Assembly: GCF_023015965.1 (NCBI RefSeq)
Contig: NZ_JALKAN010000001.1
Coordinates: forward strand, 1,448,160-1,512,159
DNA length: 64,000 nt
Origin: Allomuricauda sp. F6463D
GTDB taxonomy: Bacteria; Bacteroidota; Bacteroidia; Flavobacteriales; Flavobacteriaceae
Direction: 5' to 3'
Both the position numbers and the translations under genes were made by a program. Below are positions 15,987-39,951 of this stretch, piece after piece; position 1 is the first letter of the stretch; the number at the start of each line of letters is the position of its first letter. The notes under the pieces were generated by a model. That model did no database searches. It worked only from the letters and a program-made list of their open reading frames with translations, and was not told where the DNA came from.

Positions 15987-16016
15987 TTTGACCTTGACCA
16001 TAAACCCGTATCTTTG
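15987..16016 (+). promoter_or_regulatory. Promoter of the cyclophilin-FKBP gene
   Basis: TTTG (15987-15990), 18 bases, TATCTTTG (16009-16016). Both elements fit the Bacteroidota consensus, 54 bases before the ATG. Confidence 0.7.
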
Positions 16017-16070
16017 CAGCCTTGGAAAAATCCATGAATTTAGTTTCTAATAATCTATTAATCAAATAAA

Positions 16071-17003
16071 ATGCAAGACGGAATCTACGCAAAGTTCAAT
16101 ACCACCAAAGGTGAGATACTTGTAAATCTCACATACGATAAGACACCGGGAACGGTGGGCAACTTTGTTGCTCTGGCCGAGGGAAACATGGAAAACACTG
16201 TAAAACCTCAAGGCAAACCTTATTACGATGGATTAAAATTCCACAGGGTAATTCCCGATTTTATGATTCAGGGCGGGTGCCCAACAGGAACAGGAACGGG
16301 CGATCCTGGTTATAAGTTTGATGATGAGTTCCATCCAGATTTGCTGCACGATACCCCCGGAATACTTTCAATGGCCAACGCAGGCCCGGGAACCAATGGT
16401 AGCCAATTTTTTATTACACATGTAGCCACGCCTTGGTTAGACAATAAGCACACCGTATTTGGTCGTGTTGTGGAAGGTCAGGATATCGTAGACGCAATTG
16501 CACAGGGTGATGCCATCACAACATTGGAAATTGTAAGGGTTGGTGAAACAGCCAAAAATTGGAACGCCATAGAAGCCTTTAGAGGTTTTGAAGGCGCAAG
16601 AGAAAAACGTATTGCCGAACAAAAAGCCCAAGCAGAGGCCGAAATGGAAAAATTGGCTGCCGGTTTTGAGAAAACGGATAGTGGATTGCGTTACAAAATC
16701 ATACAAAAAGGAAGTGGTGCCAAAGCCGAAAAAGGTAAAATGGTTTCTGTACATTACGAAGGAGCCTTGGTTGATGGACAAGTTTTTGACTCCTCCTACA
16801 AGAGAAAACAACCTATCGATTTTGCTTTGGGTGTTGGACAAGTAATCCCAGGATGGGATGAGGGTATAGGCCTACTTCAAGTTGGTGATAAAGCCAGATT
16901 TGTAGTTCCGTCGCACTTGGCTTATGGCAGCGCAGGAGCAGGAGGAGTTATTCCTCCAGATGCAACTTTGATTTTTGACGTGGAATTGATGAACGTAAAA
17001 TAA
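16071..17003 (+). CDS. Peptidylprolyl isomerase, cyclophilin-FKBP fusion
   Basis: Two unrelated proline isomerases in one 310-residue chain. Residues about 5-165 form a cyclophilin domain ([35 protein letters not shown]). Residues about 200-310 form an FKBP domain ([39 protein letters not shown], ending [13 protein letters not shown]). They are joined by a charged helical linker ([19 protein letters not shown]). No signal peptide, so cytoplasmic. It probably assists folding of nascent or stressed proteins. A terminator follows. Confidence 0.93.
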
Positions 17004-17023
17004 AATATCCGCCATAAGAATTT

Positions 17024-17053
17024 AAAAAGCTTCCTAAATGGGAGCTTTTTTAT
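17024..17053 (+). terminator. Terminator of the cyclophilin-FKBP gene
   Basis: AAAAAGCTTCC (17024-17034), five-base loop, GGGAGCTTTTT (17040-17050), then more T. Its A/T arms allow use from both sides, and the stop codon of the convergent microprotein gene lies in it. Confidence 0.85.
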
Positions 17054-17133
17054 TTGGCCTTGTTTACACTCAAGAACAGTAAACAAAGATTAACAGCAAG
17101 CAAAACAGAAAGTATACTAAAAAAAGTGGTCAT
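17050..17133 (-). CDS. Single-helix membrane microprotein, copy 1 (27 aa)
   Basis: Reads MTTFFSILSVLLAVN, then LCLLFLSVNKAK, stop. One hydrophobic helix spans almost the whole protein, followed by a short basic tail. Too short for routine gene calling. Support comes from the parallel copy 73 bases upstream and a third, longer copy at 39772-39951: all share FF-[SG]-[IV]-L, LL, N, LL and SVN at the same spacing although the DNA has diverged. Likely an inner-membrane micropeptide; function unknown. Confidence 0.6.
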   Translation of the reverse strand: MTTFFSILSVLLAVNLCLLFLSVNKAK

Positions 17134-17205
17134 GGTTACAGGTGTTTAATCCGTAACAATCTAACGGATAAAAACCCTACCTATTGCCATGGTCAAATTG
17201 ATAAA

Positions 17206-17292
17206 TTATTTTTTGGAACCGTTAACACTCCAAACCAACAGCAAAGCATTAACAATTAACAGGAACGAAAGTACTCCAAAAAAGGTATCCAT
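17206..17292 (-). CDS. Single-helix membrane microprotein, copy 2 (28 aa)
   Basis: Reads MDTFFGVLSFLLIVN, then ALLLVWSVNGSKK, stop. Same architecture as the copy at 17050-17133: N-terminal FF, a 17-20 residue hydrophobic run with a central Asn, then SVN and lysines. A promoter can be drawn upstream (17344-17374). The two may share one transcript. Function unknown. Confidence 0.62.
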   Translation of the reverse strand: MDTFFGVLSFLLIVNALLLVWSVNGSKK

Positions 17293-17343
17293 TTATAGGG
17301 ATTTACTGGTTATGGGGAACAGTGTCTTTTTAGAGTTAGATAG

Positions 17344-17374
17344 CAAATAGTAGAATGGTTGCGTAGATTTCCAA
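17344..17374 (-). promoter_or_regulatory. Candidate promoter for the tandem microproteins
   Basis: On the minus strand TTG (17374-17372), 19 bases, then TACTATTTG (17352-17344). This has one base more than TAnnTTTG. It overlaps the upstream end of the region just behind the csp terminator. Confidence 0.35.
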
Positions 17375-17384
17375 AAAAATGAAC

Positions 17385-17413
17385 AAAAAAAAGCCCGAGC
17401 TTTGCTCGGGCTT
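17385..17413 (-). terminator. cspA terminator
   Basis: AAGCCCGAGC / GCTCGGGCTT with a 3-base loop, followed on the minus strand by eight T. It lies 26 bases after the csp stop. Confidence 0.88.
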
Positions 17414-17438
17414 TACATATAAAAAAGTATGTTATAAC

Positions 17439-17633
17439 TTAATCCGCAACTTGAACGTTAACGGCGTTTAATCCTTTTTTACCTTGTTGTAGTTCGAATT
17501 CTACAACATCACCTTCTCTAATTTCATCGATTAAACCTGAAATGTGTACGAAGTGATCTGTGTTTGAACCATCTTCAGTGATAAATCCGTAACCTTTAGA
17601 ATCATTGAAGAATTTTACTGTTCCTTTACTCAT
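17439..17633 (-). CDS. cspA: Cold-shock protein
   Basis: 64-residue OB-fold RNA chaperone that melts mRNA structure. Both RNA-binding motifs are present: KGYGFITEDG (RNP1) and DHFVHISGL (RNP2). Length is usual. A -7 element TACATTTG lies upstream at 17670-17663, with a leader of about 30 bases, short for a cold-regulated csp mRNA. Which csp paralogue it is cannot be said. Confidence 0.95.
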   Translation of the reverse strand: MSKGTVKFFNDSKGYGFITEDGSNTDHFVHISGLIDEIREGDVVEFELQQGKKGLNAVNVQVAD

Positions 17634-17662
17634 AATATAAATTGAAAAAATTAATTGAGTTG

Positions 17663-17670
17663 CAAATGTA
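17663..17670 (-). promoter_or_regulatory. -7 element of the csp gene
   Basis: TACATTTG, an exact TAnnTTTG on the minus strand, 30 bases before the ATG. No clear -33 TTG. Confidence 0.5.
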
Positions 17671-17713
17671 CGTTTAATTTATTGATTATCAGTTTTTTTA
17701 TAATAATTTTTTT

Positions 17714-18352
17714 TTACGCTGTTGGATCGGGCGTTAATCGCAGGTATGGCTTAATTTCTTCCACACCTTTTGTGAATATTTTTTTGGCCTCTTCAGTAGG
17801 TATTGCAGGGCTTACCACTACTTTATCTCCATTTTGCCAATCTGCTGGTGTGGCCACTTTGTGGTTGGCCGTTAGTTGCAATGAATCTATTACTCGTAAT
17901 AATTCGTAAAAATTACGTCCTGTAGAAGCCGGATATGTTAAAGTAAGTTTGATTTTTTTGTCGGGATCGATAATAAATACAGAACGCACCGTAAGTGTAT
18001 TGTCAGCATTGGGGTGAATCATATCGTAAAGATCGGAGACCTTTCTTTCCACATCCGCGACAATAGGAAAATTAACCTCGGTATTTTGAGTTTCGTTGAT
18101 GTCCTTGATCCATTCCATGTGAGATGCGGCACCATCAACACTTAGGGCCATCATCTTTACATTTCTTTTGTCAAACTCATCCTTAAACTTGGCCGCCGTA
18201 CCCAATTCAGTGGTACAAACAGGAGTGAAATCTGCCGGGTGCGAAAAAAGGATGCCCCAACCGTCACCAAGATATTCGTAAAAATTAAGTGTTCCTTGTG
18301 AAGTAACTGCTGTAAAGTCCGGAGCAGTATCCCCTAATCTTAAAGTTGCCAT
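17714..18352 (-). CDS. Peroxiredoxin, 1-Cys (Prx6) type
   Basis: Reduces hydrogen peroxide and organic peroxides. 212 residues; the peroxidatic cysteine is Cys46 in HPADFTPVCTTE, with the supporting Thr and a later Arg in TGRNFYELLRVID. The C-terminal arm (LRLTPDPTA) and length fit the Prx6/1-Cys group; no resolving cysteine is visible. A TAATTTTG -7 element is at 18398-18391. Confidence 0.93.
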   Translation of the reverse strand: MATLRLGDTAPDFTAVTSQGTLNFYEYLGDGWGILFSHPADFTPVCTTELGTAAKFKDEFDKRNVKMMALSVDGAASHMEWIKDINETQNTEVNFPIVADVERKVSDLYDMIHPNADNTLTVRSVFIIDPDKKIKLTLTYPASTGRNFYELLRVIDSLQLTANHKVATPADWQNGDKVVVSPAIPTEEAKKIFTKGVEEIKPYLRLTPDPTA

Positions 18353-18390
18353 ATAGTTATGAATTTTAGATGTAAAAAATTAGTACCCTA

Positions 18391-18398
18391 CAAAATTA
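18391..18398 (-). promoter_or_regulatory. -7 element of the peroxiredoxin gene
   Basis: TAATTTTG on the minus strand, exact consensus, about 39 bases before the ATG; no good -33. Confidence 0.45.
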
Positions 18399-18499
18399 CT
18401 GGATTATTTGACCGAAACATTATAAATCAGTTAAAACTGTATTAAAACATACCGTTTTTAAAATAGCGAAGTCAATTGTAAAGTTATTATTTTTAATGA

Positions 18500-19042
18500 A
18501 TGGAAAAAGAAGCTTTGGAACAACTACGATACCCGATCGGAAAATTTAATACCCCGAAAACCATTTCAACCGAGGATATAAACGGATGGATCTCTGTTTT
18601 AGAAGAATTGCCACAATCTTTAACCGATTTGGTCTCTGAACTTTCCAATGAGCAATTGGAAACCCCCTATCGCCCAGACGGGTGGACTGTCCGTCAGTTA
18701 GTTCATCACATTTCTGATAGTCACCACAACAGTTATATTCGTTTTAAATGGGCATTGACCGAGAGTACCCCAATTATAAAACCTTACAATGAAAAAGCTT
18801 GGGCCGAACTTTTTGATACGCGGACGGCACCCATCCAAATGTCGTTGGAGCATTTAAAAGCAGTGCATGTCAAATTGGTTTATTTACTGAAAGGTCTATC
18901 GGAAAAAGATTTAAAACGGAGTTTAATCCATCCTGATGGCAACCAGGAGACCACTTTAGAACAGAACATTGGACGTTATGCTTGGCATGGCACCCATCAC
19001 TACACCCACATCAAAAATTTGATAAAGCGAAAAGGCTGGTGA
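18500..19042 (+). CDS. DinB-superfamily YfiT/BstA-like thiol transferase
   Basis: 180 residues, four-helix DinB fold. Metal ligands are seen as His in VHHISDSHHNSY and in WHGTHHYTHI, the three-histidine pattern of YfiT/BstA. The N-terminal LRYPIGKF is also typical of this family. In Firmicutes BstA moves bacillithiol onto electrophiles; whether this host has bacillithiol cannot be told from this window. Often annotated as a putative metal-dependent hydrolase. Convergent with the GNAT gene, one base apart. Confidence 0.85.
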   Translation: MEKEALEQLRYPIGKFNTPKTISTEDINGWISVLEELPQSLTDLVSELSNEQLETPYRPDGWTVRQLVHHISDSHHNSYIRFKWALTESTPIIKPYNEKAWAELFDTRTAPIQMSLEHLKAVHVKLVYLLKGLSEKDLKRSLIHPDGNQETTLEQNIGRYAWHGTHHYTHIKNLIKRKGW

Positions 19043-39465: not shown

Positions 39466-39654
39466 ATGTTCAGTACGGGACAGATAATTTTTGCCACGCT
39501 ATTTTTCATCGTCTTTGCAGTGTTCATCACTTTATCTTATCGAAAGGATAAAAAACTGCACAAAAAAAATTACAAAGGCACTGCTTGGGTTCTCTTTTTC
39601 TTTTTGATGTTTATAGTTATCCTCTTCTTTATCAAATACTTCCTTAAAAATTAA
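39466..39654 (+). CDS. Small two-helix membrane protein
   Basis: 62 residues: helix (QIIFATLFFIVFAVFITLSY), a basic loop (RKDKKLHKKNYKG), then a second helix (VLFFFLMFIVILFFIKYFL). It looks like a conserved unnamed flavobacterial protein. The basic loop predicts that both ends face outward. Divergent from the MazG-like gene. Not a member of the microprotein family that follows; it lacks the FF..N..SVN core. Confidence 0.7.
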   Translation: MFSTGQIIFATLFFIVFAVFITLSYRKDKKLHKKNYKGTAWVLFFFLMFIVILFFIKYFLKN

Positions 39655-39735: not shown

Positions 39736-39743
39736 TACTTTTG
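39736..39743 (+). promoter_or_regulatory. -7 element of the third microprotein gene
   Basis: TACTTTTG, exact TAnnTTTG, 28 bases before the ATG at 39772. It could also drive fluC. Confidence 0.5.
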
Positions 39744-39771: not shown

Positions 39772-39951
39772 ATGACCGTATTTTTTAGCATACTTTTCGT
39801 TCTTCTTACAATCAACGCCATTTTGTTGATTTTCAGTGTTAATGGCGCTAAAGAAAGATTATTAAAACCGATTAAAAAGTTATCGGAAATTACTTCCACC
39901 AAAATACTACCCCACGAAGCGGTTCAAACCGAATACAAAGAAGCTGTTTAG
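39772..39951 (+). CDS. Single-helix membrane microprotein, copy 3 with tail (59 aa)
   Basis: Starts MTVFFSILFVLLTIN, AILLIFSVNGAK, the same core as the copies at 17050 and 17206, then about 30 extra soluble residues (ERLLKPIKKLSEITSTKILP, HEAVQTEYKEAV). The stop is 16 bases before fluC, with a -7 element in front, so the two are probably cotranscribed. Not found by simple length filters. Function unknown. Confidence 0.68.
   Translation: MTVFFSILFVLLTINAILLIFSVNGAKERLLKPIKKLSEITSTKILPHEAVQTEYKEAV

Follow-up and report, generated by a model that had tools for sequence, protein, structure and literature searches.

Two very short genes lie in tandem on the minus strand of a 64,000-nt stretch of the genome of Allomuricauda sp. 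F6463D; this whole stretch is hereafter called the window. The first gene of the tandem, MP2 (17206-17292, 28 codons, MDTFFGVLSFLLIVNALLLVWSVNGSKK), and the second, MP1 (17050-17133, 27 codons, MTTFFSILSVLLAVNLCLLFLSVNKAK), encode predicted microproteins of 28 and 27 amino acids, each with a single transmembrane (TM) helix. The upstream neighbour of MP2 is a cold-shock protein gene (csp, 17439-17633, minus strand), and the downstream neighbour of MP1, recognised by a domain scan, is a convergent gene for a cyclophilin-FKBP peptidyl-prolyl isomerase (16071-17003, plus strand). MP2 is separated from csp by a sequence resembling a terminator, a hairpin with a T-run (17385-17412, minus strand), which is similar in many, not all, rows of the genus alignment; "genus" stands for Allomuricauda/Flagellimonas in all counts below. 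Another terminator-like hairpin, flanked by A/T runs on both sides and similar in most rows, lies between MP1 and the isomerase gene (17024-17049). With such a hairpin on either side, the MP2-MP1 pair looks like a unit of its own.

Within the window, MP2 and MP1 differ at 30 of 81 nucleotides, with a proportion of synonymous differences (pS) of 0.63 and of nonsynonymous differences (pN) of 0.29. A first-pass annotation of this DNA had reported two minus-strand frames of 27 and 28 codons, and both are present where it had placed them. Beyond what it described, there is a third paralogue in the window, there are relatives at other loci, and the two genes are preceded by two different promoter-like elements, PA and PB.

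Conservation and coding signal

Early picks of family members made use of patterns demanding F, N or S at set positions, and for that reason our conservation claims rest on a pattern-free profile search. With no residues imposed, the profile scan detected MP2 together with MP1 in 35 of 36 genus genomes, and MP1 alone in the remaining one (G003); the 36 loci scanned had been chosen through earlier matches. A query with MP2 alone gave a match at E <= 10 in 36/36 genus genomes, including one (G029, 71% complete) that is outside the profile-scan set and in which the sole match was to the 59-residue type of protein described below. The same query against 23 genomes from other families of the order returned two weak matches (E 0.175 and 0.615). 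Lengths are nearly constant in the profile scan: MP1 has 27 residues in 34 of 36 copies and 28 in the other two, while MP2 has 28 residues in 32 of 35 copies and 30, 36 and 38 in the remaining three.

The ratio of nonsynonymous to synonymous substitution rates (dN/dS) was low in all three paralogues. The medians were 0.079 for MP2 (35 distinct sequences, 134/595 pairs usable), 0.157 for MP1 (35 distinct sequences, 106/595 pairs) and 0.140 for the third paralogue, LONG (48 sequences, 378/1128 pairs), whose codon set consisted mostly of genus sequences plus a few from Croceitalea and other bins. Usable pairs were those with dS of 0.1-1.5, the saturated or too similar remainder being excluded, and no usable pair of any of the three genes exceeded a dN/dS of 1. 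The codon score was 6.9 standard deviations above column shuffles for MP2 and 6.6 for MP1 (14 sequences and 200 shuffles each), and ranged from 6.6 to 9.9 across the three paralogues. In MP2 and MP1 the third codon positions vary most, with a mean minor fraction of 0.39-0.40, compared with 0.08 at second positions. Conserved blocks of non-coding DNA lie on the flanks of the frames, as would be expected if the stretch were maintained as a small RNA with accidental frames; the variable third positions and the low dN/dS speak against this and leave it next to no probability. On the strength of these comparisons, it is almost certain that MP2 and MP1 represent a conserved coding family.

The first-pass annotation had proposed tandem membrane microproteins, under selection and belonging to no described family, and had named as contrary findings an absence of relatives from other Flavobacteriaceae or a dN/dS near 1. 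Relatives are present in 20 genomes of 16 other genera, the medians for MP2 and MP1 are those given above, and all three parts of the proposal hold as far as tested.

Relatives and protein features

The third paralogue, LONG (39772-39951, plus strand), encodes 59 residues; it shares the N-terminal helix of MP2 and MP1, and its C-terminal tail, which is conserved, ends Y-K-E-A-V here and mostly Y-K-[KE]-A-[VI] elsewhere. It is preceded by its conserved upstream neighbour, a gene for a 62-residue hydrophobic protein (39466-39654, plus strand; weak sub-threshold Pfam matches at best), and followed by crcB-glnB-amtB, these neighbours having been named by sequence recognition with no family search. 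The octamer TACTTTTG (39736-39743, plus strand) before LONG fits the TAnnTTTG consensus given for the -7 box of the flavobacterial primary sigma factor in the available part of PMC9723704. When a LONG profile was run against 296 genomes of the order, all matches below 1e-9 fell inside the family.

The 20 genomes of other genera were picked for matches and represent 16 Flavobacteriaceae genera (g128, g184, g196 and g232 twice each). The interval beside the FKBP gene holds two copies in 14 of them and one copy in six. No cold-shock match was found in three of the 20 regions (L066, L072, L075), and in another (L083) csp sits between the microprotein pair and the FKBP gene. LONG lies behind the 62-residue gene in the 19 retrieved regions that reach it, about 14 to 25 kilobases from the FKBP-side interval; in the twentieth genome (G259) it was retrieved as a separate locus (L036).

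The start of LONG's downstream neighbour crcB is only 16 nt away in the window, and MP2 and MP1 are short frames behind conserved elements, an arrangement that leader peptides might show if their translation controlled a downstream gene. We consider this highly improbable, since a terminator-like hairpin and a convergent gene lie downstream of MP1, the distance from LONG to crcB differs among genomes (as judged by tblastn boundaries), and two copies at the 62-residue locus (L096, L213) have no crcB match in the stretch retrieved behind them.

Further relatives are found near ung in other genera. Type C proteins, gathered by protein similarity, have 32-35 residues and carry FSCN followed by a mostly acidic tail; ung is within the retrieved stretch in 20/20. 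Type D proteins have 58-67 residues and end TGS, with ung near all nine distinct genes (11 rows, since L094 is the gene of L217 and L097 was entered twice). A search beside ung in the window's own genome found no family microprotein there; a 34-residue hydrophobic frame, MRGDNTVIYIIAGVIILHFVAGIGYLIYKLTKKK, lies between ung and the next gene (L232:1720-1824, minus strand). Five short tail-less copies also exist, with the 62-residue gene seen nearby for three. A loose family search matched 305/397 genomes at E up to 1 and is not used as a member count, because it includes chance TM matches. A 78-residue frame around a weak match (G000:C11:614324) was inspected and dropped, and 46 pattern matches in viral contigs contained no relative.

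MP1, MP2 and LONG share an uncharged N-terminus, a hydrophobic segment at residues 4-22 and a basic tail with a mean net charge of 2.0, 2.1 and 4.5, respectively. Charged residues or His are absent from positions 4-22 in all 35 MP2, 36 MP1 and 19 LONG proteins, and occur in one of 14 first genes of the tandem in other genera and in three of 20 type C proteins. The positive-inside rule links a basic tail to membrane orientation; applied to these sequences, it suggests that MP1, MP2 and LONG are oriented with the N-terminus out and the C-terminus in. Asn15, in the middle of the helix, is found in 35/35 MP2, 36/36 MP1, 19/19 LONG and 20/20 type C proteins, and in the other genera in 14/14 first, 14/14 second and 6/6 single genes; the profile that selected these members had been built from sequences with Asn15 and imposed no rule on that residue. 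Type D has Asn at exactly position 15 in one of six proteins and within 14-16 in six of six. Positions 4, 8, 11, 15, 18 and 22 fall on one face of the helix. An AlphaFold model of LONG has a helix over residues 2-45, with a mean pLDDT of 95-96 over residues 1-20 and a low-confidence tail. The Cys-Asn of type C, followed by an acidic tail, may resemble a lipobox, and type C proteins could be lipopeptides.

Family libraries gave no convincing match for MP1, MP2 or LONG, PHROGs and the ung-locus types C and D being outside these searches. MP1 and MP2 had no Pfam match at E <= 10 and a single NCBIfam match, which scored 13.7 bits where the cut-off is 35. For 40 short or N-terminal members, Pfam matches occurred only at E >= 0.011, with one to three members each, and for 24 LONG members NCBIfam matches occurred only at E >= 0.0012, with one member each. 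The XrtV accessory protein and other weak family matches were rejected as far below cut-off or confined to single members. PDB and PADLOC held no match for the members searched, Rfam gave sub-threshold matches and no family at gathering score over 16000-18500, and literature searches, with supplements outside their scope, turned up nothing on this microprotein family.

The elements PA and PB

An alignment of the non-coding DNA of 35 genus pairs reveals two different conserved blocks: ACGCAACC with TATCTA about 45 nt before MP2, and GTAGGGT ... TTGTTA before MP1. The counterparts of the two genes in other genera have similar blocks before them. In the window, PA (ACGCAACC-N15-ATCTA; 17337-17364, minus strand, with ACGCAACC at 17357-17364) ends 44 nt before the ATG of MP2, and PB (GTAGGGTTTTTATCCGTTAGATTGTTA, pattern GTAGGGT-N15-TGTT; 17154-17180, minus strand) has a 26-nt core that ends 21 nt before the ATG of MP1. 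We regard both as predicted promoters of the extracytoplasmic function (ECF) type. A primary-sigma promoter was rejected for both genes, because neither alignment has a conserved TAnnTTTG before the gene.

The pairing of elements and genes is exclusive. PA precedes MP2 in 32/35 genus copies and MP1 in 0/36, PB precedes MP1 in 36/36 and MP2 in 0/35, and the two were not exchanged in any copy examined. In the 20 genomes of other genera, PA lies before 11/14 first genes and PB before 13/14 second genes, and the single genes have PA in 4/6 and PB in 2/6. PA, relaxed at the last base of the motif, also precedes type C relatives in 20/20, and is found before two of the five short tail-less copies, while PB is found before two of five unclassified members. 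Dinucleotide shuffles gave at most 0.025 expected matches per group. When the gap could range from 10 to 20, 53 of 54 PB matches had a core of 26 nt and the other a core of 27; of 71 PA matches, 69 had a core of 27 or 28 nt and the remaining two had cores of 30 and 32. The elements sit 20-55 nt before the ATG. As a separate observation, a [TC]CCC box is present within 45 nt of the ATG (17293-17336 on the minus strand of the window, and the genus loci) in 28/35 MP2 and 10/36 MP1; elsewhere it was counted before 10/14 first genes, 5/14 second genes, 2/20 type C and 0/19 LONG.

Both elements recur before other genes. PA was found at 81 sites in 34/36 genus genomes, compared with 11 for a reversed-pattern control, and family-wide in 172/239 genomes, compared with 31/239. 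We inspected five second PA sites in the genus, and four lead directly into a lipoprotein gene of 113-147 codons (in one case truncated where the locus ends). In loci that extend far enough, this gene is followed by that of an ECF sigma factor (PF04542, PF08281) and then by that of an anti-sigma factor, and the same three-gene operon stands behind PA in other genera, so that PA is shared by a sigma operon and a member of the microprotein family. In the window's own genome, the operon's PA site follows a recA-like gene, recognised by eye, and the anti-sigma factor combines a TM helix with an outer-membrane barrel domain. The anti-sigma factor examined (L378) has a TM helix near residues 45-65, the most hydrophobic window starting at residue 45, then a hydrophilic tether and a barrel domain at 231-443 (PF13568, 29.4 bits against a cut-off of 27). 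The lipoprotein has no Pfam match and is consequently not shown to be NigD-like. Several genomes also have a divergent PA site before a UPF0176 (TrhO-like) gene.

PB leads to a different sigma system. Each of four second PB sites inspected in the genus ends 24 nt before a fecR gene. At one locus of the window's own genome (L301), genes for an ECF sigma factor, FecR and a TonB-dependent receptor are adjacent, and the sigma gene is flanked by two PB sites: one, between the sigma gene and fecR, leads into fecR and the plug-domain receptor, and the other into a divergent lipoprotein gene. The FecR domains PF04773 and PF16344 were scanned on an orthologue (in L283). Other genera also have similar divergent PB pairs, spaced by about 600 nt, and at other loci PB precedes small membrane proteins. 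We also looked from the promoters first, taking the first listed site in 30 genomes for each element. A PA site (L318) had a family member at +22, recognised by eye and not shown by the protein search, and a PB site (L348) had one at +43 that the protein search had already matched; two further sites (L319, L359) belonged to known members.

These observations suggest that two autoregulated ECF sigma systems have PA and PB as their promoters, each read by the sigma factor that it adjoins, and that MP2 and MP1 are very probably under the control of these two systems, as judged from sequence. Several points weigh against this interpretation. We infer which sigma factor belongs to which element from genomic context, and autoregulation by analogy; PA and PB could instead be operators. 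The own element is unmatched before 3/35 MP2 (one of these copies, L018, has just 39 nt upstream), 3/14 first genes and 1/14 second genes, and neither element precedes LONG (0/25) or type D (0/9 distinct genes). A loose PA pattern gave 8 matches in the window's own genome and its reversed form gave 16, so little weight attaches to any single site. PB was found at 70 sites in 36/36 genus genomes against 42 for a variable-gap control, and family-wide in 106/239 genomes against about 78/239, so that finding PB in a genome is not very informative by itself. In genus g147, PA lies ahead of lipoprotein genes, a 34-residue basic peptide and a short frameless stretch, with no family member seen; the microprotein is accordingly not an obligate part of the PA regulon. 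What carries the argument for promoters is that the elements recur before orthologous genes and that PA goes exclusively with MP2 and PB exclusively with MP1.

Part of the same evidence fits a different view, in which the microproteins are real and serve as structural subunits of membrane complexes, PA and PB are ordinary transcription-factor sites or mixed signals, and the ECF link is incidental. LONG and type D without either element, the PA sites of g147 and the genome-wide PB counts not far above control all agree with it. Autoregulated ECF promoters usually take the form of bipartite elements of near-constant spacing, close before the start and also found before sigma/anti-sigma operons. 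PA and PB are bipartite and nearly constant in spacing, lie 20-55 nt before the ATG and recur before sigma/anti-sigma operons, which speaks against transcription-factor sites, and we regard that view as unlikely. Hydrophobic peptides of the kind encoded by type I toxin genes and silenced by antisense RNA were also considered, as the size, hydrophobicity, tandem layout and intergenic position of MP2 and MP1 fit the features of that class. What makes this very unlikely is that 20 genomes from 16 other genera keep one or two copies at a single syntenic place, under strong purifying selection and behind the same elements as sigma operons; the lack of a PADLOC match and, as a weak sign, of an Rfam family at gathering score around the locus points the same way.

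A possible role at the inner membrane

Returning to control by two ECF sigma factors, MP2 and MP1 would be paralogous single-span proteins of the inner membrane, each the product of a different ECF regulon. Envelope signals passing through the Dma-like anti-sigma factor behind PA would lead to production of MP2, and those passing through the FecR/TonB-receptor pathway behind PB would lead to production of MP1. LONG, with its box of the primary-sigma type, would be the constitutive paralogue. Up to this point, at which paralogues are wired to two ECF sigma systems, the sequence comparisons incline us to favour the explanation as a whole. We further conjecture that the conserved face F4-L8-L11-N15-L18-S22, with its heptad spacing, packs against a membrane partner common to the paralogues, and that the variants tune this shared partner under different stresses, like small stress-induced membrane proteins elsewhere; this step is tentative and rather doubtful. 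The acidic tails of type C (mean net charge -4.5) make a single topology and mechanism for the whole family questionable. A more specific and quite improbable version is one of intramembrane feedback, in which the TM helix of the Dma-like anti-sigma factor is bound by the PA-driven paralogue and the TM helix of FecR by the PB-driven one, or in which the target is a protease that cleaves these proteins. Because the paralogues share one helix face, such feedback subunits would allow cross-talk between the two envelope-stress pathways, with LONG as the constitutive set-point.

The PA operon resembles the Dma/Das systems of Bacteroides, in which an anti-sigma factor with an N-terminal anti-sigma domain, a TM helix, a disordered tether and a C-terminal barrel adjoins an ECF21 sigma factor (PMC13088901, available part). 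Behind PA we likewise find an ECF sigma gene and then an anti-sigma factor with an N-terminal part, a TM helix, a long hydrophilic tether and a C-terminal outer-membrane barrel; the likeness is one of architecture. A difference is that the available part of that source mentions no microprotein for Dma/Das. It does report that loss of Dma1 or Dma2 raises vesicle production in Bacteroides, and a related pair in Phocaeicola vulgatus has been linked to envelope stress (PMC9308784, available part). The available part of PMC12045153 contains nothing on anti-sigma factors beyond a reference. The PB-linked locus shares with FecI/FecR an ECF sigma factor, a FecR protein with PF04773 and PF16344, and a receptor with a plug domain. 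It differs in the position of PB between the sigma gene and fecR in the window's own genome, in the second PB before a divergent lipoprotein gene, and in the occurrence of PB before small membrane proteins at other loci.

MgrB, MgtS and AcrZ of Escherichia coli are single-span proteins of less than 50 residues that are produced under a stress regulator and are thought to tune a membrane partner. MP2 and MP1 are alike in being single-span and below 50 residues, a resemblance in kind, and differ in that the paralogues are split between two sigma-linked elements. A start-site map of Flavobacterium psychrophilum defines motifs SM1-SM6, of which SM1-3 contain TAnnTTTG, as found before LONG, and one, SM6, is an ECF motif containing a CGT box; the available part of that source describes no motif like PA or PB and notes that more ECF-controlled starts may await discovery (PMC9723704).

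If the explanation holds, PA and PB supply promoter sequences open to testing for two ECF sigma systems of Flavobacteriaceae, a family in which the mapping of such regulons is poor, and one of the elements would be tied to the recently described Dma type of anti-sigma factor, which in Bacteroides has an effect on vesicle formation. Together with the third paralogue and its primary-sigma box, the microproteins would offer a small and tractable handle on those pathways at the inner membrane. Genes below 30 codons are omitted by many annotations, and those described here form, in a large bacterial family, a layer that is conserved and apparently regulated.

Several other short frames were seen behind the two elements. 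In g147 (L390, L400, L387), two PA sites lie 176-179 nt apart, the first leading into the short frameless stretch, which ends in a hairpin-like repeat, and the second into the 34-residue basic peptide, which is conserved. PA also precedes a peptide of 30-40 residues ending CKADGG (L304/L377, L310, L312, L314, L321, L373, L374, L392), which lies ahead of the UPF0176 gene in L373, L374 and L377. In five genomes (G020, G259, G178, G144 and G160; L364-L368), PB precedes a single-TM protein of 54-55 residues whose C-terminus, QFGY or QYGY, is conserved; a Pfam scan of one copy gave no match, and the protein is a candidate further member of the PB regulon. Finally, in the window's own genome (L369, contig C21) and at L370, PB is followed by a short frame with MFRLVLIL(L/F)KSPGVVPGAF, similar in the two genus species.
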